The position numbers and the translations under genes are program-made. This document shows, piece by piece, positions 6,336 to 27,580 of a stretch of DNA of 33,174 nucleotides. The DNA is taken from contig PLON01000019.1 of NCBI GenBank assembly GCA_003142095.1, positions 1 through 33,174 of the forward strand. Reading direction: 5' to 3'. Numbering within the stretch: position 1 is the first letter of the stretch; every line of letters begins with the position of its first letter. The notes under the pieces are model-generated. The model searched no databases. It saw only the letters and a list, made by a program, of their open reading frames with translations, and was not told the origin of the DNA. Origin of the DNA: Acidimicrobiaceae bacterium (GTDB taxonomy: Bacteria; Actinomycetota; Acidimicrobiia; Acidimicrobiales; RAAP-2).

Positions 6336-7604
6336 TTACGGCTTGGGTTCGCCGATCACTTCACCAACGAGGAGTCGGCGCACATTCCACTGCAGATGCT
6401 CGACCATGTCGTCCGAAACTCCTTTGGGCGGCGCGATCTCCGTGATCGCACCATCGAGAGCAACGAGTGTCTCTGAGACCAGCGCCGACGCTCGGGTCGC
6501 GGCGATCACGCCCCAAGAATTCGCCTCCGCGAGAATGCTCTCCACAGAAAGTTTCTGATGATCAAAGATCCCGTTGACAGCCAAGGCGAGATCCCACTTC
6601 ACGAGACCTGCCTGGAACAAGTTGGGCAACGCGTCATAGACCTGCGCGAGTTCGGTGCCTGTCGAAAGGTGCATGAGGGCAGCGTTCTTCGCATGCGCGT
6701 CGTTGTTGCCAATTGTGACATGGAAGGTTAGGTGCCGTAGCCAATTCTCCACCGCGGCATCGCTGCTAGGAATCGAGCCAAGCATTTCGGCGATGCGCCG
6801 CACCGTGGCCCGCTTAGGGTCGCCCGGCCAGTCGGGCTCCTGGAACTTCGTGTCCGTGTCTCGCCAGTCGAGGCTCAGTGCCTGGGCGAGATCTTCTTGG
6901 TGGTGCAGATTCACATGACCGTTGACCACCGTCCGGTCGAAGCGCTCGATGGCAAGGTACGTCATGGACTCCGCCGTACGGATTTCACTCGAATAGCTTG
7001 ACAGGCCGATGCGCTGGGTCAGCAAGTGGCTGTAGTGCTCGTCGAAGATGCGGTTCGGCCTCGCGGGGACCTGAGGCTTGAGGATGTGCGTCGAGTGGGC
7101 CCGGCCGTGTGGAAAAACCCACTGCCGCTCGACCTGCGCGACGAGCACCTTCGGTTGATAGCCGGTCAGCGTGGAGCGACTGTCGTCCGCGATGGCCTGA
7201 TCGCTGTCTTCGAGTGCTTGCCTGAGCTTTGTGCTCAACGCGTGATCATCGAGTGGCTCATAGACGGGCTGGTACGTCTTCGCCTCATCTGACTGACGCA
7301 GCGTCACGGCGCCGGCGATCGACCCGCCGAACTCGCGTAGTAGAGCGAACAGGTCATCCTTGTCGATTCGACGCTTGGTCGCCATCGCCTCACGATGGTT
7401 ACCCTCGGGGACGTAACCGCCGAAAAAGTTCGACACCGCTTCGACCGGTGGGCGCCGTCCAGGAATAGTCGCGAACGACTCACTCAGCAGAATCTCGGCG
7501 TGATACGCCACGTCCACATCGAGCGTCACTCTGGTCTTGTTGCGCCGGTCAGGCTCGACGATGCCGACGAAGCGGTCGTGAAGGAACAGGTTAAGACCCG
7601 GCAT
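6336..7604 (-). CDS. hipA: HipA-family serine/threonine kinase toxin
   Basis: 422 residues, close to E. coli HipA (440). The N-terminal HipA domain (~residues 3-105) is followed by the kinase. Recognisable parts are the P-loop STLTGYQPKVLV (144-155, with a possible autophosphorylation Ser/Thr), the ATP-binding lysine K176 in HILKPQ, the catalytic loop IGNNDAHAKN (298-307, D302) and the metal-binding D324 in VYDALP. HipA kinases phosphorylate aminoacyl-tRNA synthetases (GltX in E. coli) and cause dormancy; the target here is unknown. All key residues are present, so it should be active. The ATG start overlaps the hipB end by 14 nt, which couples translation. The unit is controlled from the hipB operator region. 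Confidence 0.93.
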   Translation of the reverse strand: MPGLNLFLHDRFVGIVEPDRRNKTRVTLDVDVAYHAEILLSESFATIPGRRPPVEAVSNFFGGYVPEGNHREAMATKRRIDKDDLFALLREFGGSIAGAVTLRQSDEAKTYQPVYEPLDDHALSTKLRQALEDSDQAIADDSRSTLTGYQPKVLVAQVERQWVFPHGRAHSTHILKPQVPARPNRIFDEHYSHLLTQRIGLSSYSSEIRTAESMTYLAIERFDRTVVNGHVNLHHQEDLAQALSLDWRDTDTKFQEPDWPGDPKRATVRRIAEMLGSIPSSDAAVENWLRHLTFHVTIGNNDAHAKNAALMHLSTGTELAQVYDALPNLFQAGLVKWDLALAVNGIFDHQKLSVESILAEANSWGVIAATRASALVSETLVALDGAITEIAPPKGVSDDMVEHLQWNVRRLLVGEVIGEPKP

Positions 7605-11994: not shown

Positions 11995-12356
11995 CTCGAC
12001 TCGCGGGCGTACTGGCAATTCTCACGATTTCGAGCGCACTGCTCGCGTCGTGCGGAACCGGCGACGCCACCTCCGACGTGCGACACAGTTGCGTGTACGT
12101 CAAGCGCGCTCTCGCGGTTGAATCCCAGAGCGAACAACCGGGGCTTAGCACTTCGCGACGTCACGAACTTGAATCCAACGCGCTCAGCGAACTGCTGCGG
12201 GCGACTCCCTCGGCGGCGGCCGCCACGTCAATTGACGGAAGTTGGAATCCGCTTATGACGACGATCAACGAAGCGGAACGAGTGCCAATTCCCGACTTGC
12301 AGGCGTCTCTGACTCGACTGTGTCGAGTCGCCGACTCACAAACGCCGTACCTCTAA
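11982..12356 (+). CDS. small lipoprotein of unknown function
   Basis: 124 residues from GTG 11982. The signal peptide has a hydrophobic core (LAGVLAILTISSALLAS) and a lipobox LLASC with Cys24, so it should be exported, lipidated and membrane-anchored. The mature part is about 100 residues, helical, with two further cysteines (C37 and one near the C-terminus) that could form a disulfide. It overlaps the upstream hypothetical gene by 13 nt and meets the minus-strand gene tail to tail with a 4-nt overlap. No domain was recognised. Confidence 0.78.
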   Translation: MARLARLAGVLAILTISSALLASCGTGDATSDVRHSCVYVKRALAVESQSEQPGLSTSRRHELESNALSELLRATPSAAAATSIDGSWNPLMTTINEAERVPIPDLQASLTRLCRVADSQTPYL

Positions 12357-12697
12357 CTCTGCGCGGGCAAACGTTCCTTCAACCAGTCCAAGGAATTTTC
12401 TTCGAGCATCGCCTCTTCCCATCCCTCAAGAAGGTCTTCCAGCGCGGCCTTAGAGCCCACCTTGCCAATGATGACGACGGTCAAGTCGGTGACCGGTTCA
12501 TTCGAAATGAGGAAATCCCCAAAGATGTCCTCCGACACGACCGCGTCGGGCTCGACCATCAAATAGAGTTCGCCGGTCGCCTCGACCCACGAGAGTTCGT
12601 ACTCGTTGTCGGCCTTGTCGGTCCACTCGTTGCCGAACTCGAACTCCGCGCTCTCACGTCGGGCCTCGTTTTGCTCGTAGAAAGATTCGATATCCAT
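12353..12697 (-). CDS. acidic conserved hypothetical protein
   Basis: 114 residues from ATG 12697; TAAGG lies 7 nt before it, better than for the ATG two codons upstream (12703). It begins MDIESFYEQNEARRESAEFEFGNEW and is strongly acidic, with an alternating beta pattern in YELSWVEATGELYLMVEP and DLTVVIIGKV. It is soluble, with no signal peptide. I recognise it only as a conserved actinobacterial type without a known role. It is divergent from the 12833 gene. Confidence 0.78.
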   Translation of the reverse strand: MDIESFYEQNEARRESAEFEFGNEWTDKADNEYELSWVEATGELYLMVEPDAVVSEDIFGDFLISNEPVTDLTVVIIGKVGSKAALEDLLEGWEEAMLEENSLDWLKERLPAQS

Positions 12698-12832
12698 TTT
12701 CATACCTTACGTCGCGAATATGTGCGTTACCGAGTGCGCGGTGTTGTCCACGATGGGGGCATGAAGAATGTCGTCGCACGATGCGCGAACGTGGCTGCTG
12801 TCCGATGCGTGAGGGGCTCTCTACTGGGCCCC

Positions 12833-13531
12833 ATGACCACCAAACTTGACCTCTTAAACAACCTTCGACACGAATGGCGCTGGGTCGGACGACGTCCGAG
12901 TGCCCGCGAGGCGGTGCGACGCCTCGACGAACGTCACCCCGACCTGCGGCTCTGCGATCAGCACGATCTCTGCGATGTCGTGGAGCTTCTCGAGTCGCGA
13001 AGTGGGCGCAGTGTCCTCGAGCGAGCGCAGATCGTACGTGCATTATTGCAAGAGGCGAGCGATCCCGACATTCATCGGGCGCTGCTGCAAACACTCCTGC
13101 CGGGTGTGGTCAGCGTCTGTCGACAGCTGCGCTTCGGTGAAGGCATCATCGAGGAACCGAGCGAGACCCTCGCCATGGCCATCTCTCTTCTGAGCGAGTT
13201 ACTCGTCGACTGGGCGGGCCAGTCGCGCACCTACGCGGCGCCCGACCTCTTATCGGCGCTACGGGGACGGCTACGCCGGTGGATGTTGAAGGAAAAGGAG
13301 GCGCTGCGCAACGTGACCAACTTTGAGGTTGCCGAGTGCGCGGCCGAGGAGGCTTCGCCACTTCTCACTCGACTAGAAGGACTGCGCGAGGATCACGACC
13401 GCCTCGTGCGCCTCACCTACGCACGAGTCTTTGAGGGACGATCCCTGCGCGAACTCGCAGCCCACGACCACAGCGCGCCCGTGTCGCTGCAGAGCGAACT
13501 CGCGCACTTCGCTGTTCGTTATTTGCTCTAG
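12833..13531 (+). CDS. helical protein, possible sigma-region-4-like C-terminus
   Basis: 232 residues from ATG 12833; the frame is open far upstream but there overlaps two other genes, and MTTKLDLLNNLRHEWRWVG is a sensible start. It is all-helical and rich in Arg, Leu and Glu. The C-terminal ~55 residues (LEGLREDHDRLVRLTYARVFEGRSLRELAAHD and on) resemble the helix-turn-helix of sigma-70 region 4, but the similarity is weak and no region 2 is evident. It lies 68 bp before the secreted Ser/Thr-rich protein, on the same strand. A regulator or accessory factor for the next two genes is a guess. Confidence 0.65.
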   Translation: MTTKLDLLNNLRHEWRWVGRRPSAREAVRRLDERHPDLRLCDQHDLCDVVELLESRSGRSVLERAQIVRALLQEASDPDIHRALLQTLLPGVVSVCRQLRFGEGIIEEPSETLAMAISLLSELLVDWAGQSRTYAAPDLLSALRGRLRRWMLKEKEALRNVTNFEVAECAAEEASPLLTRLEGLREDHDRLVRLTYARVFEGRSLRELAAHDHSAPVSLQSELAHFAVRYLL

Positions 13532-13599
13532 TCATTATCAAAGGTTGTGAATGTCCGACGAATTTGCATCGCCTCAGCCGTTACCCTGCAAGGACCACT

Positions 13600-14226
13600 A
13601 TGAGACTGCCGCACTCACTCAAGAGCACTCACTGGGTGATGTGGTCGAGCCCCGTTCTTCTCTTGGTCCTCGTTTTCACCTTGACCGCCTCGTCGAGTTC
13701 GACGCCACCGCGCCACCTCGACTCCCTCACGGTGCCTCCGGCAAGTACAACCCCGCGAACAAGTACCTCGACGCGGCCAACGACGACGGCCCCCGCGACG
13801 ACCACGACGAGCCCGAGCTCACACGCGAAGGTGAGTACCGTGCACCACGTGGCGCGCACGACATCGCTGGCGCGAACGCCGACGGAGAGCGTCCCGACGA
13901 CGATCGCCGTTCCCGACAAGAACTCGTCCAGCGTGACCGCTTCGAACGCCAAGTCCAGCGTGAACGCGTCCGTCGCGAGCGCCTCGAGCGGCGACGTGAG
14001 CGGTCAGCTCAGCCCAGCGTTCGACGTGGCCGACGTGCCCCTGCGGGGCCCCGGAACCTGGAACGTCGCGACGAGCGCTCCGGCGGCAGTGAACCTGGCG
14101 TGCCCGGGCGCGTCGATCACGGTCAACGGCCAGTTCGAGATCGCGGCCCGCACAACGTGCCAAGTAACCATCGCACCGATGGGTCCAGACCGGTCCGTGA
14201 CGTGGGAACTGACACCAACTACCTGA
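13600..14226 (+). CDS. secreted or membrane-anchored Ser/Thr-rich protein
   Basis: 208 residues from ATG 13600, which follows AAGGA at 6 nt; an ATG at 13564 is in frame but lacks a signal. A hydrophobic segment at residues 15-31 (VLLLVLVFTLTA core) is a signal peptide or anchor. Residues ~32-125 are almost wholly Ser, Thr, Ala and Pro, a flexible and possibly glycosylated wall-spanning linker. The last ~75 residues form a compact beta-like domain with two cysteines (NLACPGA and TTCQV). The other open frame here (13551 on) is a shadow caused by the biased composition. It overlaps the start of the membrane BTAD gene. Confidence 0.75.
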   Translation: MRLPHSLKSTHWVMWSSPVLLLVLVFTLTASSSSTPPRHLDSLTVPPASTTPRTSTSTRPTTTAPATTTTSPSSHAKVSTVHHVARTTSLARTPTESVPTTIAVPDKNSSSVTASNAKSSVNASVASASSGDVSGQLSPAFDVADVPLRGPGTWNVATSAPAAVNLACPGASITVNGQFEIAARTTCQVTIAPMGPDRSVTWELTPTT

Positions 14227-15893
14227 GACGTCCGCTCGGCGCTCGCGTTCACGGAACGGCGCTCGTGCTCTACTTCGCCCTCCTACCCTACGTGGTGCTC
14301 TCGAAGTGGCGCCAGACCTCGAGCGAAAGCAGTGGGTCGCTTGTTCGGGTACTTCTTATCGTTCTCGCACTGTTCTGGATCGGTTTTCTCTGCCAGGTAC
14401 TGCGAAACGTCTGGCGGCTGCGCCAAGGACGGCGAGTGAACTCCGGTGGCAGCGCCTGGCTCGCCGGAGTGGTCGTGGCGATGTTGGCGCTCGCGGTACC
14501 GACTCACGCGACCGCGCACGAACCTACGGCCATCTCCGTTCCGTACAAGTCGACGTCTACTCACGATCATGGCCACCTCCCGGTACCTCTCGTGAGCCTC
14601 TCCCCCATGCCGTTAGCCCTCATGGCGAAGCGTCGCAACGACGCCCTACGCCAACCCCAGGGCGGGGATCTCTTCGACGTGGATGAGTCGATCGAGCTCT
14701 TGCGGGCTTTGGACCCGAATCTCATTGGTCATCTCGTCGCCCTGATCGGCGACGAGACCGACGGCGTGCTGGACGTCCCCGACTCTCCAACGCCCTTAGA
14801 GAGCGTTTCTCCACGTTCGGTAATTCTCGCGTGCTCGCTGGGACCGAGCGCCTCGGGTTCCCTCGTGGGATTCGCTCGAGAGGGTGGACGCCTGCCCATA
14901 CGGGCCTCGTGGAACGTTGACGACATCAAGCGGCGCGTGGTCGCGCTGCACGACGGGACCATTGCCTTCGCGAAGAGCGAGCCCGAACTTCTGCGCGCTC
15001 TCGCGACGCGCACACTTCGCCACAGCGTCGTGCTCTACCTCGGCGCCGCGAACGAGCTCGACGACGAACTCAGTGCGTGTGCGATCACGCTCACGCCCTA
15101 CCTCGAACACGAGACCCGCGCGCCCACCCGAGCTCTCAACGAAGCACCTCGCTCCAGCGATCTGCGCGTCGAACTACTGCGCGCCGATCCCTATGTGGCG
15201 GGAATCGTCGAGCCCTTTACCCCCACGCTTCGCCGACGCTGCGTGGAGATGGTCGCCTATTTGGCCCTGCATCGCCACGAGCCGATCACCGGCGAACGAC
15301 TGCGTACTCGCGTGCTCGTGCACGCTGACGTCGAGGCGTCGACGCGGACTCTCGCGAACACGGCGAGCGCCGTACGCCGAAGCCTCGGCGTCGACGCCCA
15401 GGGTCCGCGCTTGCACCCCGTCACTTCGTCGGGCCTCTACGCCACCCACGGATTCTCGAGCGACGTTGAAGTCTTCTTCACCCTCGTGACGCGCGCTCGC
15501 CAACTTCCCGTAGCCGACGCCGCGCCCCTCGCCCACGAAGCGCTGTTGTTGATCAAAGGAGAGCCGCTCGCGAGCACGCTGCGTGGTTTCGAATGGTTTC
15601 TCGCCGAAGGTCACGCGGCGCGCCTCGCCCGCGACGGTGAGTGGGCGGCCTTAGCGCTGCACCACACGTCACTGCAGCGCGGCAACTACGAACTGGCCTT
15701 TTGGTCCCTGCAGCAAGGGCTTCTCATCGATCCCTACAGCGATGCCCTCAGCGACGCGCTCTCTCGCGTGCCGCGACTACGCGAGTTTGGCGGCGATCGA
15801 ACCCGCCTTGCGCAACGCCAGCCCGTCGGCGCCCGCGGTGCTGTAGCGATGAGTTGGTCGTTCTCGGGCCTCTCGCAACAGGTCTTTCAATAG
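14202..15893 (+). CDS. membrane-embedded BTAD/SARP-like regulator
   Basis: About 563 residues if GTG 14202 is the start (25-nt overlap with the preceding gene); the start is uncertain. Three hydrophobic helices lie near residues 17-36, 47-67 and 83-101. A middle region of ~250 residues follows. The C-terminal ~200 residues then carry a winged-helix-like segment (RRRCVEMVAYLALH, LRTRVLVHADVEASTRTLANTASAVRRSLG) and a helical bacterial transcriptional activator domain (VFFTLVTRARQL, EALLLIKGEPL, LALHHTSLQRGNYELAFWSLQQGLLIDPY). SARP-type regulators are normally soluble, so membrane helices suggest sensing at the envelope, perhaps via the secreted partner gene. Its last 117 nt overlap ddl on the other strand. 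Confidence 0.75.
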   Translation: MGTDTNYLRRPLGARVHGTALVLYFALLPYVVLSKWRQTSSESSGSLVRVLLIVLALFWIGFLCQVLRNVWRLRQGRRVNSGGSAWLAGVVVAMLALAVPTHATAHEPTAISVPYKSTSTHDHGHLPVPLVSLSPMPLALMAKRRNDALRQPQGGDLFDVDESIELLRALDPNLIGHLVALIGDETDGVLDVPDSPTPLESVSPRSVILACSLGPSASGSLVGFAREGGRLPIRASWNVDDIKRRVVALHDGTIAFAKSEPELLRALATRTLRHSVVLYLGAANELDDELSACAITLTPYLEHETRAPTRALNEAPRSSDLRVELLRADPYVAGIVEPFTPTLRRRCVEMVAYLALHRHEPITGERLRTRVLVHADVEASTRTLANTASAVRRSLGVDAQGPRLHPVTSSGLYATHGFSSDVEVFFTLVTRARQLPVADAAPLAHEALLLIKGEPLASTLRGFEWFLAEGHAARLARDGEWAALALHHTSLQRGNYELAFWSLQQGLLIDPYSDALSDALSRVPRLREFGGDRTRLAQRQPVGARGAVAMSWSFSGLSQQVFQ

Positions 15894-16883
15894 TTCACCG
15901 AACGACACTGGCGGATCGACGAAGAGGTATTTCGAGAGCGACCCGGGAATGGTGTTGATCTCGTTCACGTAGAGTTCTTCGTCGTTGGCGAGAAAGTCCA
16001 GCCGCGCCACACCGCGCACCAGGCACAGTTCGGCAATGGTGCGACTCAGTCGAAGGATCTCGTCGCGCCGGTCCGGCGAGAGGAGAGCCGGCAGTTCGCG
16101 CGGCGCCGCGACCATGCCCTCGCCGCCCACGTACTTGTCGCGATAGTTGAGAATCTCCGCGTCGTTCGAACGGCGCAGCGGTCGCTCGATCGCCGAAAGT
16201 TCCAGTGTGGGAAAGGTTCGCATCGCGATCTGAACGTCGGAGAGATCCGCGCGGTAGGGCTCAACGACGCATCCGTTGGCGAAGTGAATATTGGTGCTGA
16301 GCCGAGCGCGCGCCGTGGCGAAATCGGCCACCACGTCGATGCCGATCGACGAACCTCCAAAACGTGGCTTCAAAATGTACGGGCCCTCGAACGCGAGGCT
16401 CGACGTCTCTTCGGAGAAGAGTTCGCGCGCGAGCGTCGGTAGCCCGGCCTCAGCGATGAGCGACGAGAAGGCCCATTTATCCATGCCGAGCGCCGCACCG
16501 GCGAGCGTGGGTCCCGAGTAGGCAAGTCCGGCGAGATCGAGTGCACCCTGAAGCGTCCCATCCTCACCCGGTCCGCCGTGAGTCGCGAGGATGAGAGCAT
16601 CGACGTCGAGACGTCGCTCGCGTCCGAGGCGTGAACCACCGGTGTAAAAACCTCCGGCGTCGCCGAGACGCAGGCTGACCTCGCTCGACCCTCGCGGGAC
16701 GCCGTCGAGAAACGCTTCGGCTTCGACGTCGCTCGGGACCAAATAGAACGAACCCGACTTTGTCCAGTAAATGCCCGCGACGTCGGGCTCGACGCGCGCC
16801 AGCTCGCGCAGAGCCTGCAGGCCCGTCAGAATTGAAATGTCGTGTTCGGGAGTAGGACCCCCGAAGAGAACTCCACTAGTCAC
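15777..16883 (-). CDS. ddl: D-alanine--D-alanine ligase
   Basis: 368 residues from GTG 16883, preceded by GAGG at 6 nt; a GTG at 16898 is the alternative. ATP-grasp motifs are clear: VLFGGPTPEHDIS at the N-terminus, HGGPGEDGTLQGAL, ILKPRFGGSSIGI, then RLDFLANDEELYVNEINTIPGSLSKYLF near the end. The enzyme makes D-Ala-D-Ala for peptidoglycan, which MurF joins to the UDP-muramyl peptide. It is third in a minus-strand operon after the hydrolase and the MurF-like ligase (30-bp gap). A tail of ~25 residues beyond the usual end (after LLREARERP) lies within the region that overlaps the BTAD gene. Confidence 0.93.
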   Translation of the reverse strand: MTSGVLFGGPTPEHDISILTGLQALRELARVEPDVAGIYWTKSGSFYLVPSDVEAEAFLDGVPRGSSEVSLRLGDAGGFYTGGSRLGRERRLDVDALILATHGGPGEDGTLQGALDLAGLAYSGPTLAGAALGMDKWAFSSLIAEAGLPTLARELFSEETSSLAFEGPYILKPRFGGSSIGIDVVADFATARARLSTNIHFANGCVVEPYRADLSDVQIAMRTFPTLELSAIERPLRRSNDAEILNYRDKYVGGEGMVAAPRELPALLSPDRRDEILRLSRTIAELCLVRGVARLDFLANDEELYVNEINTIPGSLSKYLFVDPPVSFGELLKDLLREARERPTHRYSTAGADGLALRKAGSIAAKLA

Positions 16884-16913
16884 CGAACACCTCGCCACGA
16901 CCTCATTAAGACA

Positions 16914-18479
16914 TCAAGGATAGTGGTCGGGCAGGTCGTTCAAGAACAAGACGCCGTCGCCGGGCACGAGATTATTGCGAATCCACTTCACCGCGTCATC
17001 TCGTGTATCAAAGCGCCGCGTGGGTCCGGAGTATCCGGCCGAGAGAGCCACGATGTTCGTTCTCCCGATCGCCAACAATTCGGCGGGCACCGCTTCCACC
17101 AATTGGGCCAAGCGCAGGTTTTCGCCGTGTTGCTCGGCGCCGAGTTCCACCAGTCCGGGAGTTACCACCACGCGTCGGCCGGTGACCGTGAGCGACGCGA
17201 GCGTATTGAGGGCCGCGATCACGCTCGCGGGGTTGGCGTTGAAGGTATCGTCCACGACCACGATTCCCGCCGGGGACGTCGCGACGTTCAAGCGGTTGGC
17301 CACCGGCTGCACCTCGGAGAGGCGTGAGGTAATCTCGGACACGTCAACGCCGAGTTCTCGCGCCGCCGCGATCGCGCAGGCCAGATTGGTCGGTTGGACG
17401 CCGACGATTTCGTCACGTTCCACGATCGTCGCGCCATCGACAACGATCGTCCAGCGATGCGCATCAACGCCAACGCGCACGTCCGCACTGACCATCGTCG
17501 AGCCCGCGGTGACGACCCGCTTGCCCTGTTCGCGCAGATCCCTCACCCATCCGCCAAGACGAGCATCATCGATGTTGAGAACAATGGTGGGAGCGACTTC
17601 CGTGATCTCATGTTTGGCCGCTTCGACCACGTCGAGACTCTTCATTCGCTCCAAGTGCACCGGACCGATCGCCGTGACGACGGCAATCTCCGGCGCACAC
17701 CACGAGGTCAGCTCGCGGATCTCGCCGGGACCGTACGTGCCCATTTCGCCAATGAAGATTCTCGTGTCATCGGCGACGTTTTCGTTGATGGCCCGCGACA
17801 GTCCCGCACGATTGTTGAAACTCCGTGGTGACGCCACGGCCCCGGCGTTTGGTCCGAGAAGGGTGCTCAGGTAGTTCTTGGTCGACGTCTTTCCATAGGA
17901 GCCGGTGATCGCCACGACCCGGGGACTGGCTTTGGCGAGACGACGCAGCGCCTGATCGACGAACCGTTGCGCGCGACGATCCTCCATGGGGCGAAGGGCG
18001 CGCGTCACGAGGTCCAACATCGGCGGCACGGCGAGCACCATGACGACGGCCCCGAGGTACGGATGCGGCGCGAGAGCGCTGACGCCCGCAATCACCGCCG
18101 ACACGAACGTCGCCAGAAGGGCGGTCGTGCGCAGGCGCCGAGTCCACTCGAGGCGACTCGTGCGTCCGCGTATCGAAAGTCCCACGGGACAGAAGAGTCC
18201 GTAGATGACCGTCGCGACGACGAGAAGGTCCCAGGCGCGAAAGACAATGGTGACGAGCATGGCCACGATGAGGACGTGACTGAGCGTGAAGGGACGTCGA
18301 GGTCTCGCCGTCGTGGTCTTGGCGCTCGTGCGCTGCGGCGAGGACCAGCGCGCGAGAAAACGCATCAGCGACGTCGGGTCATAGTGTTCGCGTTGCAGAA
18401 CGCGTAGCCACCGTGCCATCTGCGCGCCGTAGGCGACCGCGAGCAACGCGCTGAGCGCGAGTGCCTCAGCGATCTTCAC
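16914..18479 (-). CDS. membrane-anchored MurF-like Mur ligase
   Basis: 521 residues from GTG 18479, overlapping the hydrolase stop as GTGA. Residues 1-160 hold about four to five hydrophobic helices (near 5-22, 66-82, 84-100, 118-135, 141-157) in place of the usual MurF substrate-binding domain. The Mur ligase core follows: P-loop ITGSYGKTST (191-200), SFNNRAGLSRAI (220-231), VVDDTFNANPASV (408-420), PGLVELGAEQHG (441-452) and the ending NDLPDHYP. MurF adds D-Ala-D-Ala to the muramyl tripeptide. Adjacent ddl supports a role with D-Ala-D-Ala, but the changed N-terminus may mean a different, perhaps lipid-linked, acceptor. The membrane-bound MurF-like subfamily is known to me; its substrate is not. 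Confidence 0.85.
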   Translation of the reverse strand: MKIAEALALSALLAVAYGAQMARWLRVLQREHYDPTSLMRFLARWSSPQRTSAKTTTARPRRPFTLSHVLIVAMLVTIVFRAWDLLVVATVIYGLFCPVGLSIRGRTSRLEWTRRLRTTALLATFVSAVIAGVSALAPHPYLGAVVMVLAVPPMLDLVTRALRPMEDRRAQRFVDQALRRLAKASPRVVAITGSYGKTSTKNYLSTLLGPNAGAVASPRSFNNRAGLSRAINENVADDTRIFIGEMGTYGPGEIRELTSWCAPEIAVVTAIGPVHLERMKSLDVVEAAKHEITEVAPTIVLNIDDARLGGWVRDLREQGKRVVTAGSTMVSADVRVGVDAHRWTIVVDGATIVERDEIVGVQPTNLACAIAAARELGVDVSEITSRLSEVQPVANRLNVATSPAGIVVVDDTFNANPASVIAALNTLASLTVTGRRVVVTPGLVELGAEQHGENLRLAQLVEAVPAELLAIGRTNIVALSAGYSGPTRRFDTRDDAVKWIRNNLVPGDGVLFLNDLPDHYP

Positions 18480-19228
18480 TGACGCAGAGCCTTCTCGGCG
18501 GCGTCCATGAGGGCGGTAGGCGCCTCCAGTGGTACGAGATGGCCCACGCCGTCGAGAACGGTCAGGCTCGTTGGCCCCTCCGTCAGCTCCATGGCTCGCC
18601 TCGCCACGTCGACGGGAACCTCGTGGTCGTTCTCGCCCCAGACAAAAGTGACAGGCATGGCGAGCAACGTCAGTTCGCTTTCGTAGCTTTCGTTGACACT
18701 CGCCACGAGGACGTTGCGCATGACGCCCTCCGCGTTTCGATAGTCCGTCGATCCGTACTTGTTGCGCGCCGCTTCGAGGCGACGCGGACTCACGAGACGA
18801 CGGCGAGCGAGCGAGCGCAGCGTTCGATACGCCAGCGGAGAGAGCGCCGAACTCGTCGCGCGCACGAGCGGCGCGCCCGACACCACGAGAGCGTGAGTGA
18901 GTTCTGGGTGGCGACTCGCCGCGACCACCGCAATACATCCGCCTCGGGAGTGCCCGACGAGAACGATCGGTTCCTCGGCGATCTCGCGCAGTGTCGGCAG
19001 GATCAAGTCGGCGTAGTGTCGTGCGCCCCCGGCCACGAGAGGCGCGGGCGACGCGCCACAGCCCGGAAGATCAAGCGCCACCGACGCGAAACCGCGCTCC
19101 GCCAGAGCCGTCGCCGCGGCGGCGAAGTCTGCACCTCGCCGCGCCCAGCCGTGTAGCCACACCACTCGAACCGGTCCCGCGCCGTAGGACTCTCCAAAGA
19201 CCCGCGAATCACCGTAGCTACGAAGCAC
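18476..19228 (-). CDS. alpha/beta hydrolase
   Basis: 250 residues from GTG 19226-19228. It has an oxyanion-loop motif LHGWARRG, the nucleophile elbow GHSRGG (92-97, Ser94), the acid D201 in WGENDHEVP and His230 in DGVGHLVPLE, so the catalytic triad is complete. No signal peptide. Substrate unknown; possible esterase, lipase or peptidase. It is the first gene of the operon leading into the MurF-like ligase (4-nt overlap) and Ddl, so a role in cell-envelope metabolism is possible. It is divergent from the helicase gene at 19301 across a 72-bp promoter region. Confidence 0.9.
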   Translation of the reverse strand: MLRSYGDSRVFGESYGAGPVRVVWLHGWARRGADFAAAATALAERGFASVALDLPGCGASPAPLVAGGARHYADLILPTLREIAEEPIVLVGHSRGGCIAVVAASRHPELTHALVVSGAPLVRATSSALSPLAYRTLRSLARRRLVSPRRLEAARNKYGSTDYRNAEGVMRNVLVASVNESYESELTLLAMPVTFVWGENDHEVPVDVARRAMELTEGPTSLTVLDGVGHLVPLEAPTALMDAAEKALRQ

Positions 19229-22524: not shown

Positions 22525-22956
22525 TTAGCCGTCGGCGAGGACGAAGAAAATCTCCGTCGCCGCGGCGAGCTCGCCACCGACGAGGGCACGGCCCGCACCT
22601 TTTCCGCCACGCGATGACAACTTGGTCATCTCGCACTCGACCGTCACCGTGTCTCCGGGGAGGACTTGGCGACGAAAGCGAGCGCGCTCGACTCCACCAA
22701 AAAGCGGCAGACGCCCGGTGTAGCGCTCGTCAGCGAGCACGACGACCGCGCCGCACTGCGCGATGGACTCGAGCAGCAAGACGCCCGGCGTCGTCGGACG
22801 ACCCGGAAAGTGCCCCGAGAAGAACCACTCATCACCACGCAACGTCCACTCGGCGCTCGCGCGCACGCCCGGCTCAAGTGTGACGAGCGTGTCGAGGAAC
22901 AAGAACGGTGCACGGTGCGGTAACCAGTCCATTGGATTCATTGAAAGGTCGCTCAT
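22525..22956 (-). CDS. fabZ: 3-hydroxyacyl-ACP dehydratase, FabZ-like
   Basis: 143 residues. The hot-dog fold dehydratase signature is complete: LPHRAPFLFLD (12-22), then GHFPGRPTTPGVLLLESIAQ (48-67) with catalytic His49 and Glu63. FabZ removes water from 3-hydroxyacyl-ACP during fatty-acid elongation. Other FabZ-like hydratases exist, so the substrate is not certain. The ATG overlaps the stop of the NYN-S1 gene (ATGA), which makes it the third gene of the kgd operon. Its stop converges on the TPP-enzyme gene. Confidence 0.88.
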   Translation of the reverse strand: MSDLSMNPMDWLPHRAPFLFLDTLVTLEPGVRASAEWTLRGDEWFFSGHFPGRPTTPGVLLLESIAQCGAVVVLADERYTGRLPLFGGVERARFRRQVLPGDTVTVECEMTKLSSRGGKGAGRALVGGELAAATEIFFVLADG

Positions 22957-23978
22957 GGCAACGCCAGCTCGGCGATTCGTCGTTCACTATCCACCGTCAC
23001 CAGTCGAAAGGTGCGCTGATCGCCGCGCTTCAAGACGTCTCTCGCTCGAGCAGGTGCGGGCGTGCCGAGCGAAGTGGTCGGGGCGTAGCACTCCACTTGC
23101 TTTCCGCCCTTCAACTCAACTTTGATGACGGCGCCGTGCGAGGTAAACGCCGTCACTTCACCCTGGACGCGCGACCCCACTCGATAGGTGTTCTTGAAGA
23201 GCGTGAAGTCGGCTTCGGGATTGACCGGCTGACGGCCGCGCTTGAGCGCCACCGCCGGCGCGGGAGCCGCCTCGTGCTTGGCGACTTTTTTGATCGATTT
23301 TGCCGGAGCCTTCGCGAGTTTCTTCGCGGGCTTCTTCGCGGGTTCCGCCGTCTTGAGAGCTTTCTTCGCAGCTTTGGCGGGCGCTTTCGCTATCTTCTCC
23401 GCGACCTTTTCGGGCTTGGCCGCCGCCTTCTTGACACTCGCCGCCTTCTTCGCCTTCACCGGCGTCAAGGTCGTGCCGATCGTAGGTTTGACACCACTCG
23501 GCAAGGTCACCGCCAACTTCTTCGCGCTCCGGGCGACCTTGGCGTTGCGCACGGGCACGCGCGGCGTAAAGACCCAACCAACTCCGCGCACGGGTTTGCC
23601 GCCGATTAATCGACCGACCTCAAAGAGCCACGGGTACTCGTCTTGAAACTCTTGAAACGAGTCGTTGCTCAAAACCACGCCGTCAATGCGGTCGGCGATC
23701 TTCAAGATGAACGCGTCACCGCGCCCCACGGCACCGGCGGGCGGTGTCACGATCTCTCCGGCGAGCGAGGCGTCGGTAAAGCGACTGCGCTCGCCCGTGG
23801 CGACACGGTGTTCAAAGGTGGCGTCGGCGACGACGATGATCTCCGCTGTCGGGTTCTCTTCGCTGAATGCGGTCACGGCTTCGTCGAGCTGGGTCAGACT
23901 CGGCAACACGCGACCCTCGGTCGCGAGGTTTGATCCGTCCACCACAACGCGGAGCCGTGGCCCTTTGGAGGGACTCAC
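22953..23978 (-). CDS. NYN-domain nuclease with Lys/Ala-rich linker and S1-like domain
   Basis: 341 residues from GTG 23978, overlapping the kgd stop as GTGA. Residues 8-140 are a PIN-like NYN (Zc3h12a/regnase-type) nuclease: VVVDGSNLA (D14), VVADATFEHR (D52), GRGDAFILKIAD (D88) and VLSNDSF (D106), four acidic residues fit for a metal site. Residues ~172-245 are a Lys/Ala/Pro-rich histone-H1-like stretch. Residues ~265-340 look like an S1/OB RNA-binding domain (RVGSRVQGEVTAFTSHGAVIKVEL). The architecture predicts an RNase with two nucleic-acid tethers. It is translationally coupled to kgd upstream and fabZ downstream, an unexpected pairing. The NYN call is strong; the S1 call is good. Confidence 0.87.
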   Translation of the reverse strand: MSPSKGPRLRVVVDGSNLATEGRVLPSLTQLDEAVTAFSEENPTAEIIVVADATFEHRVATGERSRFTDASLAGEIVTPPAGAVGRGDAFILKIADRIDGVVLSNDSFQEFQDEYPWLFEVGRLIGGKPVRGVGWVFTPRVPVRNAKVARSAKKLAVTLPSGVKPTIGTTLTPVKAKKAASVKKAAAKPEKVAEKIAKAPAKAAKKALKTAEPAKKPAKKLAKAPAKSIKKVAKHEAAPAPAVALKRGRQPVNPEADFTLFKNTYRVGSRVQGEVTAFTSHGAVIKVELKGGKQVECYAPTTSLGTPAPARARDVLKRGDQRTFRLVTVDSERRIAELALP

Positions 23979-26900
23979 CCGACCGTCCGCTCGAGAAGGT
24001 CCGCCTGCTCCGCCGCGTGCACGAGGCTGCTTCCGGTCGCCGGACTGGCCGACTCCGCGCGCGCCACGTGTGACACTTTCAGTCCGCGCAGTTGGTGATG
24101 CCTCTGCACGAAGGGCCACGCGCCCATATTCTCCGGCTCTTCTTGGAGCCAGACAACGTCAGAGACGTTTGGGTAGCTCTTGAGTACGCGATCAATTTCA
24201 ACAGCGGGCCACGGGTAGAGTTGTTCCACGCGAACAACCGCCACGCGTGACGCTGACGCCGCGTCACGCCGGGCCAGCGCCTCGTGGGCGACCTTGCCCG
24301 ATGCCAAAACCACTCGAGTAACAAGACTTGCGTCGCTCACGTGATCGTCGAGCACCGTCTGGAACGAGCCGTGTTCGAATTCGCTGAGTGGCGAACGAGT
24401 CTGCACCGCGCGCAGCATCGACTTGGGCGTGAAGACGATGAGCGGAACGGGATGTTCACGCAGCACCTGGCTACGTAGGAGGTGGAAGTACTGGGCGGAC
24501 GTAGTGGGCTGGGCCACACGAATGTTGTTTCGCGCACTCAGCGAAAGGTAGCGCTCAATACGTCCACTCGAGTGCTCGGGCCCTTGACCCTCGTAGCCGT
24601 GGGGCAAGAGCATGACGAGTGTGGCGAGTTGGCCCCATTTGTCTTCCGCGGCGACAAGGAAGTTGTCGACAATGATCTCGGCGCCGTTCGCGAAGTCACC
24701 GAACTGCGCTTCCCAAGCCACCAACGTGTTCCTCGCCTCAACCGAGTAGCCGTATTCGAATCCGAGGGCCGCGTACTCGCTCAAGAACGAGTCACGCACG
24801 GTGAAGAATCCCGGGGCACCCATGCTCGCGAGGGGAACGTACTGATTACCGTTCTCGTAGTCGATGAGAGCCGCGTGGCGGTGCGAGAACGTGCCTCGGC
24901 GGGTGTCTTGACCGGTGAGACGAACGTTCGAACCCGATTTCACGAGTGAACCCACGGCCAATGCCTCACCGAACGCCCAGTCCACTTCACCCGATTCGAG
25001 CAACGCCATGCGCTGGGCGAACTGTCGCTCGAGCTTCGGGTGGATAGTGAAGCCCTCGGGTGCAGTGATGGTCGCTCTCGCGATGTCGAGCAACGTAGCG
25101 CGATCGACGCCCGTCTCGGGCGCGGGTAGATCAACCGGCGTCTCGGCCGCGTGCACGCGATCTAATTTCGGCACGGGTACAGTTCGAACTTCGTCGAGCA
25201 CGCTCTGCAGGCGAGTATTGAATTCATTCAGCGCCGCTTCGGCTTCGTCGATGGAGATATCGCCGCGACGAACGAGAGTCTCGGTGTAGATCTTGCGCAC
25301 CGAGCGCAGTTGATCGATGATCTTGTACATCTGAGGTTGGGTGTAGCTCGGGTCGTCGCCCTCGTTGTGGCCGTAGCGGCGATAGCAGACGATGTCGAGG
25401 ACGACGTCGCGCTGGAAGGCTTCACGATATTCGAAGGCCAGTCGCGCCGCGCGCGCGCACGCCTCGGGGTCGTCGCCGTTCACGTGAAAGATTGGCACCT
25501 GGATCATCTTGGCCACGTCGGTCGGGTAGAAACTCGAGCGAGCCGACTCCGGCGCCGTCGTAAATCCCACCTGATTGTTGACGACGATGTGTATCGCTCC
25601 GCCAATGCGGTAACCCGACAGCTGCGAGAGATTCAACGTCTCGCCCACCACGCCCTGGCCGGAGAAGGCCGCGTCACCGTGGATTAACACCGCGAGGTAC
25701 GGGCGTTCGACGAAAGGGAGATCCTGATCGGTGCCGTCGCTCGGGCGAATTACGAGGTCCTGCTTCGCGCGAACGATGCCTTCCACCACGGGTGAAACCG
25801 CTTCTAGGTGCGAGGGGTTCGAGGCCATCGACACGTCAATGGTGACTCCGCTCGCGCTCTTGAAGACGCCGCTCGCACCTTTGTGGTACTTCACGTCGCC
25901 ACTGCCCTGAACGCTGTCGGGATCGAGGTTGCCTTCGAACTCCGAAAAGATGTCGCTGTAGGACTTACCCACGATGTTCGCGAGTACGTTCAGTCGTCCA
26001 CGGTGCGCCATGCCAATAACGGCCTCTTTCACTCCGTGATCGGCCGCCTCGTCGAGTACCGTCTGCAACGCAACGATGGTCGATTCGGCGCCCTCGAGAC
26101 CAAAGCGCTTTTGGCCCACGTAGCGCGTGTGCAAAAACTTCTCGAAGACTTCGGCTTCGCTGAGTGCGTTCAGAATTCGACGCTGTTCTTCTGTGCTGAC
26201 CGAGACGTTCACGCCTTCCACGCGCTCTTGGATCCAACGCTTTTGCACTGGGTCCATGATGTGGCCGTACTCGATGCCGATCGTGCGGCAGTACGCGTCG
26301 CGCAAGATCACCAAAATCTTTTCGAGTGTCGCCTCGTATAGTCCCGCGAGTCCGTCTACCACGAACGAGCGCTGCAGGTCCCAGATCGTCAGCCCGTAAG
26401 AGGCGAGGTCCAGCTCCGCGTGCAGCGGCGGCGGCTCGCTGCTCAAGGGATCGAGGTGCGCGTTCAGGTGACCACGAACCCGATACATGTTTATGAGGGC
26501 CTGAACGCGAATCTGCTTCAAGATCCGTTCGGCCTCCCCCTCGGTCGCCGAGGGGTTCGAGTCCTTCGCCCAGCGCGCCGGCTCATACGGCACACCGAGT
26601 GAGGCAAACACGTCGTCGTAGAAGTCGTGACTACCAGTGAGACATTCGGCCACGTACTTCAAGAAGAGCCCGGACTCCGCACCTTGGATGATGCGGTGGT
26701 CGTAGGTCGACGTCAACGTCATGACTTTGCCGACGCCCAGTTCCGCCAGCGCACGCGGGTCCGCCGCTTCGAAACCCGCGGGCCACGTAAGAGCGCCCAC
26801 ACCAAATATCGCTCCTTGACCCGACATCAAGCGCGGTACCGACTGCACTGTTCCCAGGGTTCCGGGATTGGTGATGGAGACCGTGGCTCCGGCAAGGTCG

Positions 26901-27580
26901 TCAGCACCGTAAGCGCCACCGTGCACCTTGCGCACGAGGTCCTCGTAGGCGAGAAGGAACGATCGAAAATCCATGGCGTCGGCGTTTTGAATCACGGGGA
27001 CGAGCAAGTTGCGTGTCCCATCCTTCTTCTGCACGTCCACGGCGAGACCGAGTCCCACGTGATCGTGGTGGCGTACGCCGGGTGTTCCCTTGGCGTCGAC
27101 GGCGTCGACGAACGTTGAGTTCATCGCGGGAATCTCGCGCAGTCCTCTAACGATGGCGAACGCGATGAGGTGAGTGAATGAGACTTTGGCCCCACTCGAG
27201 CGCGCGAGCGACTCGTTGAGTGCGGCCCGGTTGATTTCGAGAAGTCGGGCGGCGACCGTGCGAACGCTCGTCGCGGTCGGCACGGCCAGACTGGCGATCA
27301 TATTGGTCACGATGCGCGCGGCCGCACCGCGCAGCGGCGTGGCTTCGGCATCAATGGCGACGGGCTTTGCGGAGGGGACCGGCGCCGCGAGCGCACTCGT
27401 TGTCGTCGCCACGGTCGGCAGCGTCGAGCGTTGGTAGTCGGCGAAGAATTCGCGCCAACTTTCCGCGACGGACGCCGGGTCGGCGAGGAAACGGTCGTAC
27501 ATGTCGTCGACGAGCCAGGCGTTGGGCCCAAACGAGCCCTGCGCCGGGCGAGCAGACGATGATTCGGGGGGGGTAGTCAC
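23975..27580 (-). CDS. kgd: multifunctional 2-oxoglutarate metabolism enzyme (Kgd, SucA/SucB-like)
   Basis: 1201 residues from GTG 27578-27580. The N-terminal ~45 residues (FGPNAWLVDDMYDRFLAD..SWREFF) are the E1o signature. Residues ~75-340 are an E2-like acyltransferase core without a lipoyl domain (VSFTHLIAFAIVRGLREIPAMN, TSTYDHRIIQGAESGLF). The rest is the ThDP-dependent E1 part (EYGHIMDPVQKRWIQER, GMAHRGRLNVLANIVGK, GDVKYHKGASG, NNQVGFTT). This single-chain layout is typical of actinobacterial Kgd, which decarboxylates 2-oxoglutarate in the TCA cycle and works with separate E2 and E3 or makes succinate semialdehyde. It heads the operon with the NYN-S1 and fabZ genes. A weak ribosome-binding site precedes the GTG. 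Confidence 0.96.
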   Translation of the reverse strand: MTTPPESSSARPAQGSFGPNAWLVDDMYDRFLADPASVAESWREFFADYQRSTLPTVATTTSALAAPVPSAKPVAIDAEATPLRGAAARIVTNMIASLAVPTATSVRTVAARLLEINRAALNESLARSSGAKVSFTHLIAFAIVRGLREIPAMNSTFVDAVDAKGTPGVRHHDHVGLGLAVDVQKKDGTRNLLVPVIQNADAMDFRSFLLAYEDLVRKVHGGAYGADDLAGATVSITNPGTLGTVQSVPRLMSGQGAIFGVGALTWPAGFEAADPRALAELGVGKVMTLTSTYDHRIIQGAESGLFLKYVAECLTGSHDFYDDVFASLGVPYEPARWAKDSNPSATEGEAERILKQIRVQALINMYRVRGHLNAHLDPLSSEPPPLHAELDLASYGLTIWDLQRSFVVDGLAGLYEATLEKILVILRDAYCRTIGIEYGHIMDPVQKRWIQERVEGVNVSVSTEEQRRILNALSEAEVFEKFLHTRYVGQKRFGLEGAESTIVALQTVLDEAADHGVKEAVIGMAHRGRLNVLANIVGKSYSDIFSEFEGNLDPDSVQGSGDVKYHKGASGVFKSASGVTIDVSMASNPSHLEAVSPVVEGIVRAKQDLVIRPSDGTDQDLPFVERPYLAVLIHGDAAFSGQGVVGETLNLSQLSGYRIGGAIHIVVNNQVGFTTAPESARSSFYPTDVAKMIQVPIFHVNGDDPEACARAARLAFEYREAFQRDVVLDIVCYRRYGHNEGDDPSYTQPQMYKIIDQLRSVRKIYTETLVRRGDISIDEAEAALNEFNTRLQSVLDEVRTVPVPKLDRVHAAETPVDLPAPETGVDRATLLDIARATITAPEGFTIHPKLERQFAQRMALLESGEVDWAFGEALAVGSLVKSGSNVRLTGQDTRRGTFSHRHAALIDYENGNQYVPLASMGAPGFFTVRDSFLSEYAALGFEYGYSVEARNTLVAWEAQFGDFANGAEIIVDNFLVAAEDKWGQLATLVMLLPHGYEGQGPEHSSGRIERYLSLSARNNIRVAQPTTSAQYFHLLRSQVLREHPVPLIVFTPKSMLRAVQTRSPLSEFEHGSFQTVLDDHVSDASLVTRVVLASGKVAHEALARRDAASASRVAVVRVEQLYPWPAVEIDRVLKSYPNVSDVVWLQEEPENMGAWPFVQRHHQLRGLKVSHVARAESASPATGSSLVHAAEQADLLERTVG

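Follow-up and report, generated by a model that had tools for sequence, protein, structure and literature searches.

The closest described relatives of the protein analysed here are the extended PIN endoribonucleases Regnase-1/ZC3H12A-C and KHNYN/N4BP1, with which it shares the NYN fold (Z ~14) and the DGSN and SND motifs; ZC3H12 and KHNYN are also its only named solved relatives at E < 1e-3 by profile. Mouse Regnase-1 carrying both D226N and D244N is reported to be inactive (PMC4772114), and an Asp cluster is likewise reported to be required in the CRISPR NYN (PMC11346440). Another bacterial NYN protein, Rae1/YacP (PF05991), belongs to a different Pfam family and is reported to cleave mRNA at the A site of the ribosome; a possible tie to the ribosome is a point of likeness (PMC12320835, PMC6294520). 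RNase R (RNB-S1-K/R-rich tail) resembles our protein in that S1 and a basic extension come after the nuclease; both are reported to contribute to the binding of duplex RNA and to association with the ribosome (PMC12320835). RNase R is, however, an exonuclease, and its catalytic fold is unrelated.

The NYN-S1 protein differs from Regnase and KHNYN in being bacterial, in carrying an S1 domain instead of CCCH or KH domains, in having Gly for the first Asp of the DD pair, and in its basic arm. Of this domain order the first-pass annotation knew no described example, and we found none in the literature searched, to which the 2006 paper defining NYN (which may mention such proteins) did not belong. 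The claim of novelty is tempered by a 2010 mention of a bacterial fusion of LK-nuclease (DUF88), OST-HTH and an S1 or cold-shock OB-fold domain (PMC2848206). Such fusions are likewise bacterial and combine an NYN-superfamily nuclease with an RNA-binding OB-fold, but they belong to the LK/DUF88 branch with OST-HTH and not to the Zc3h12a branch.

Domain architecture and conserved residues

The window (the whole stretch of 33,174 nt analysed here) contains the NYN-S1 gene and its immediate neighbours at the following positions:

22525..22956, minus strand: fabZ (3-hydroxyacyl-ACP dehydratase), downstream of the NYN-S1 gene with a 4-base overlap; NCBIfam NF000582 above cut-off
22953..23978, minus strand: NYN-S1 gene, 341 aa, GTG start; from the ORF list
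22956..23222, minus strand: S1 domain, residues ~253-341; family matches and fold match
23229..23531, minus strand: Lys/Ala-rich linker, residues ~150-250, probably disordered; composition, net charge and low pLDDT
23544..23954, minus strand: NYN (Regnase/PIN-like) domain, residues ~9-145, holding D14, D88 and D106; Pfam PF11977 and model
23975..27580, minus strand: kgd (multifunctional 2-oxoglutarate dehydrogenase/decarboxylase), upstream of the NYN-S1 gene with a 4-base overlap; NCBIfam NF008907, 1702.5 bits

The open reading frame and both overlaps, already annotated at first pass, were confirmed, the shared bases being GTGA between kgd and the NYN-S1 gene and ATGA between the latter and fabZ. 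The gene is present in a single copy in its own genome (2.64 Mb). A promoter and terminator scan of the kgd-fabZ region gave no excess over shuffled sequences (promoter sites 1 vs 0.7), and tRNA-Val was the only RNA feature detected in the window. Elsewhere in the window lie a HipA-like kinase gene (6336-7604, minus strand; HipA_C E 2.1e-32, Couple_hipA), possibly a member of a toxin-antitoxin system, a D-Ala-D-Ala ligase-like gene beside a gene that by eye looks like MurF, forming a cell-wall pair (15777-18938, minus strand), and two adjacent long open reading frames on the plus strand (12242-13531 and 13551-15893; 429 and 780 aa) with no Pfam match at E <= 1e-6.

Pfam RNase_Zc3h12a (PF11977) matches residues 9-116 of the window protein (E 4.1e-9, 36.8 bits vs a cut-off of 23) and 31/31 family members at E <= 0.1. 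At E <= 1 the window protein drew no match to PF05991. Pfam S1 (PF00575) stays under its 22-bit cut-off in the window protein (E 0.1, 13.5 bits); at E <= 0.1 it matches 22 of the 31 family members (best 3.7e-8) and misses the other nine, and profile comparison yielded a match to ribosomal S1 over the whole chain (E 2.4e-8). The AlphaFold2 model consists of two confident domains with a low-confidence middle. Within the NYN domain pLDDT is mostly > 90, the block 81-90, which holds D88, being less sure (73), and over residues ~150-250 it is ~46-61 per ten-residue block, by which the model suggests that this region is probably disordered. The predicted N-terminal domain adopts the NYN/PIN fold of PF11977 and is matched by ZC3H12C (Z 14.4, rmsd 2.7, 131 residues), KHNYN (Z 14.2) and MCPIP1 (Z 14.0), and the predicted C-terminal domain adopts the S1 OB-fold and is matched by M. 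tuberculosis ribosomal protein S1 (4nng; Z 14.1, rmsd 1.5 A, 86 residues); Foldseek results agree for both parts. The order of RNase-like NYN, basic linker and S1 read at first pass is thus borne out by domain matches, predicted fold and family conservation, and its description of the linker as histone-H1-like is fair for the composition, as Pfam HC2 (histone H1-like nucleoprotein) matches 8/31 members at E <= 0.1, the window protein not being among them.

In an alignment of 67 distinct orthologs, from which 7 partial, open or frame-broken loci had been removed beforehand, residues D14, D88, D106, E110 and N17 are invariant (67/67). The three Asp residues had been singled out at first pass as the acidic residues whose lack of conservation in homologs would speak against the proposal. 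In ZC3H12A/KHNYN the residues aligned with D88 and D106 are, respectively, the second member of the DD pair and the Asp within SND, and by the mapping made in this analysis D88 and D106 are equivalent to D226 and D244 of Regnase-1. The position of the first Asp of the Regnase DD pair is taken by G87 (67/67), leaving three of the four catalytic Asp residues of the Regnase type. Within the S1 part, residues S280, H281, G282 and Y298 are invariant in the 67 orthologs, and conserved SHGA and CY.P stand in place of more usual S1 residues. Because the S1 domain is divergent in these motifs and in the members that Pfam misses, RNA binding by it is not assured.

The replacement of a catalytic Asp by G87, together with the histone-like arm, would also suit a protein that is no longer a nuclease and that binds RNA or the nucleoid, with the NYN fold kept as a scaffold. 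Since invariance of all five residues goes beyond the needs of a scaffold, we regard such a loss of activity as improbable.

Distribution and the position of the basic arm

A match to the NYN-S1 family was found in 58 of 61 sampled relatives, comprising 37/37 genomes of the window's family (hereafter f1; its own genome included, G018 being cut by the contig end) and 21/24 other genomes of the order. Within the class, 58/198 genomes have a strong match to the NYN part (counted by reading; G159 is partial). The full-length profile gave 110/198, about half of which were matches to the Lys/Ala tail or to ribosomal S1, and hence only strong NYN-part matches were counted. An NYN-only profile matched 28/396 phylum genomes, each within the class (Acidimicrobiia, an assignment that rests on the labels of the matching genomes), and gave no match in the ~358 sampled actinobacteria outside it; PF11977 itself was found in 12/198 phylum genomes, each again within the class. 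Most of the named relatives carry the label Acidimicrobiaceae, Acidimicrobiales or actinobacterium, and two of 31 (L011 and L029) are labelled Acidobacteria and may be mislabelled bins. A viral origin was rejected, as 35 stretches in viral contigs fit a pattern and none encodes a relative. Two loci (L115 in G055 and L116 in G152) encode an additional short protein that matches the NYN profile weakly (E 2.2e-15 and 8.0e-14) and has an Arg-rich end, perhaps another NYN family.

The family's conservation in the class is broad, suggesting a housekeeping role, and its NYN part is also matched by PRORP1/2 (Z ~13, rmsd 2.8-3.1). Both would fit an enzyme that acts as the PRORP metallonuclease domain does, maturing tRNA or rRNA from their precursors, and for which mRNA is not the main substrate. 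However, the sequence profile of the family finds KHNYN/ZC3H12 and not PRORP at E <= 1, and the gene is missing from 8 genomes of the order in the 198-genome class sample and so is dispensable there. RNase P RNA is moreover present in 39/41 relatives, the genome of the window included (RF00010, E 2.3e-82), so that RNase P has not been replaced, and the candidate role of a protein-only RNase P in its stead was rejected. A principal role in stable RNA processing is therefore unlikely in our view.

The 45 f1 proteins have a linker with a median net charge of +23 and almost no tail, vs a linker of +10.5 and a tail with medians of 152.5 residues and +35.5 in the 22 non-f1 proteins (where the tail of L081 ends at the contig end); the difference in linker charge has a p of 0.004 in a test that ignores kinship. 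Taken together, linker and tail are net positive in all 67 proteins, with a minimum of +11. Genus g27 within f1 (two genomes) carries a basic linker (+15 each) as well as a basic tail (+23 and +14). Tail charge was measured in 8 of 11 genomes of other orders, the remaining three not matching the motif pattern, and amounts to +30 to +49 in seven and to +4 in one that is cut near a contig end. In G118, of the same order, the tail is short and without positive charge. The basic arm switches position, an observation that is new here: most other lineages carry it behind S1, the window protein carries it in the NYN-S1 linker, and g27 has it in both places. Its presence is kept while its position moves. 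In the phylogenetic tree 14 f1 rows group together (98/99), and the direction of the positional change is given as likely, on a tree that is midpoint-rooted and has no firm root.

Gene neighbourhood in the family and the order

Throughout f1 the NYN-S1 gene has kgd as its immediate upstream neighbour and fabZ as its immediate downstream one, as far as the contigs extend and broken frames aside. Among 50 distinct f1 loci, 44 show the 4-base overlap with kgd and 42 that with fabZ (approximate counts, with start codons chosen by script; three loci are without fabZ data as the contig ends there). A neighbourhood confined to a single genome, which the first-pass annotation had named as evidence against its proposal, is not what we observe. 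In G106 (genus g26) the NYN-S1 gene is adjoined by neither kgd nor fabZ.

Outside f1, the order's other families include 34 genomes that have both genes on one contig. In 34/34 of them kgd is located upstream in the same orientation, at a distance of 0.1 to 5.3 kb, and in 30 of these a gene for a HAD hydrolase and/or an M20 peptidase lies between them on the opposite strand. The exceptions are G118, G051 and G042, in which 0.1-0.35 kb separate the gene from kgd, and G053, where the gap is 0.83 kb and neither HAD nor M20 was matched. Because the HAD or M20 gene intervenes on the opposite strand in most of these genomes, the NYN-S1 gene cannot be generally co-transcribed with kgd. fabZ lies directly downstream in one of the 34 (G226). 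At that locus (L148, of another family) the HAD gene is still located between kgd and the nuclease gene; the arrangement is either an intermediate or a separate gain of fabZ, between which the midpoint-rooted tree does not decide. The stretches taken from 11 genomes outside the order yielded neither kgd nor fabZ, nor a HAD or M20 gene, and kgd was not found at E 1e-150 in 9/60 genomes carrying the NYN-S1 gene. The contiguous kgd-NYN-fabZ order is a local, family-level arrangement; synteny with kgd is real and old within the order.

These data bear on the suggestion, made at first pass, of a link between RNA turnover and central metabolism, by which the nuclease would control, or be controlled with, the expression or flux of kgd and fabZ. 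The overlaps within f1, the constant upstream position of kgd and the second occurrence of fabZ in G226 would be consistent with it. However, contiguity with both genes is found in f1 only (with kgd alone nearly so in G042, G051 and G118), being interrupted in 30/34 genomes and extended to fabZ in 1/34, and it is the same neighbours that are missing from the stretches of other orders and, for kgd, from part of the genomes carrying the gene. Moreover, 4-base overlaps are frequent between bacterial genes. The suggestion is not upheld, and we consider a metabolic tie of this kind very improbable.

Proposed function

Our preferred reading, to which we assign a probability of roughly 60%, is that the NYN-S1 protein belongs to the Regnase/KHNYN branch of the NYN/PIN superfamily and acts as a metal-dependent RNA endonuclease, tethered by S1 and the arm and serving as a housekeeping accessory RNase. 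Judging from the fold and the invariant residues, the NYN domain would cut RNA via its Asp cluster. Comparison with RNase R suggests that the enzyme would be held on single-stranded mRNA or translating ribosomes by its S1 domain and its basic disordered arm, raising the local substrate concentration, and a role on mRNA is suggested by analogy with Regnase and Rae1. The enzyme would be an accessory RNase of one actinobacterial class, working beside RNase E/G. A replacement of RNase E/G was rejected: RNase E/G is present in 187/198 class genomes, that of the window included, and the NYN-S1 enzyme is thus an addition and not a replacement. The kgd-fabZ operon would be a family-level rearrangement: in the window's lineage, where no gene intervenes, transcription would run on from kgd into the NYN-S1 gene. 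Across most of the order the NYN-S1 gene is divergent from the HAD or M20 gene and would therefore need its own promoter. Counting against this reading are the glycine in place of a catalytic Asp, the divergent S1 domain, the promoter scan without excess over shuffled sequences, and the invariable presence of kgd upstream in the order, which could mean more than inheritance.

Rae1 has, to our knowledge, neither an S1 domain nor a basic arm. In f1, PF05991 was matched in 0/13 sampled genomes while the NYN-S1 gene is kept in 13/13, and the genome of the window has no PF05991 match at E <= 0.001. A replacement of YacP across the class is not supported, as PF05991 co-occurs with the NYN-S1 gene in 22/58 genomes and is found in 68/140 genomes without it. 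A bolder version of the preferred reading, which we put forward tentatively and hold to be rather doubtful, would make the protein a bacterial Regnase, restricted to the class and tethered to ribosomes. As a quality-control endonuclease convergent with Rae1 of Bacillus, it would cut mRNA on or near ribosomes engaged in translation, having borrowed a domain of the ribosomal S1 type and a movable histone-like arm.

The locus carries a warning that a striking operon, 4-base overlaps included, can be a local arrangement, the wider setting here being divergence from a HAD or M20 gene. The different places of the arm in relatives offer a simple natural comparison of the use of a basic disordered arm to an RNase. 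If the proposed role is true, an actinobacterial class would possess a further mRNA endonuclease of its own, whose Regnase-type nuclease domain is better known in animals.
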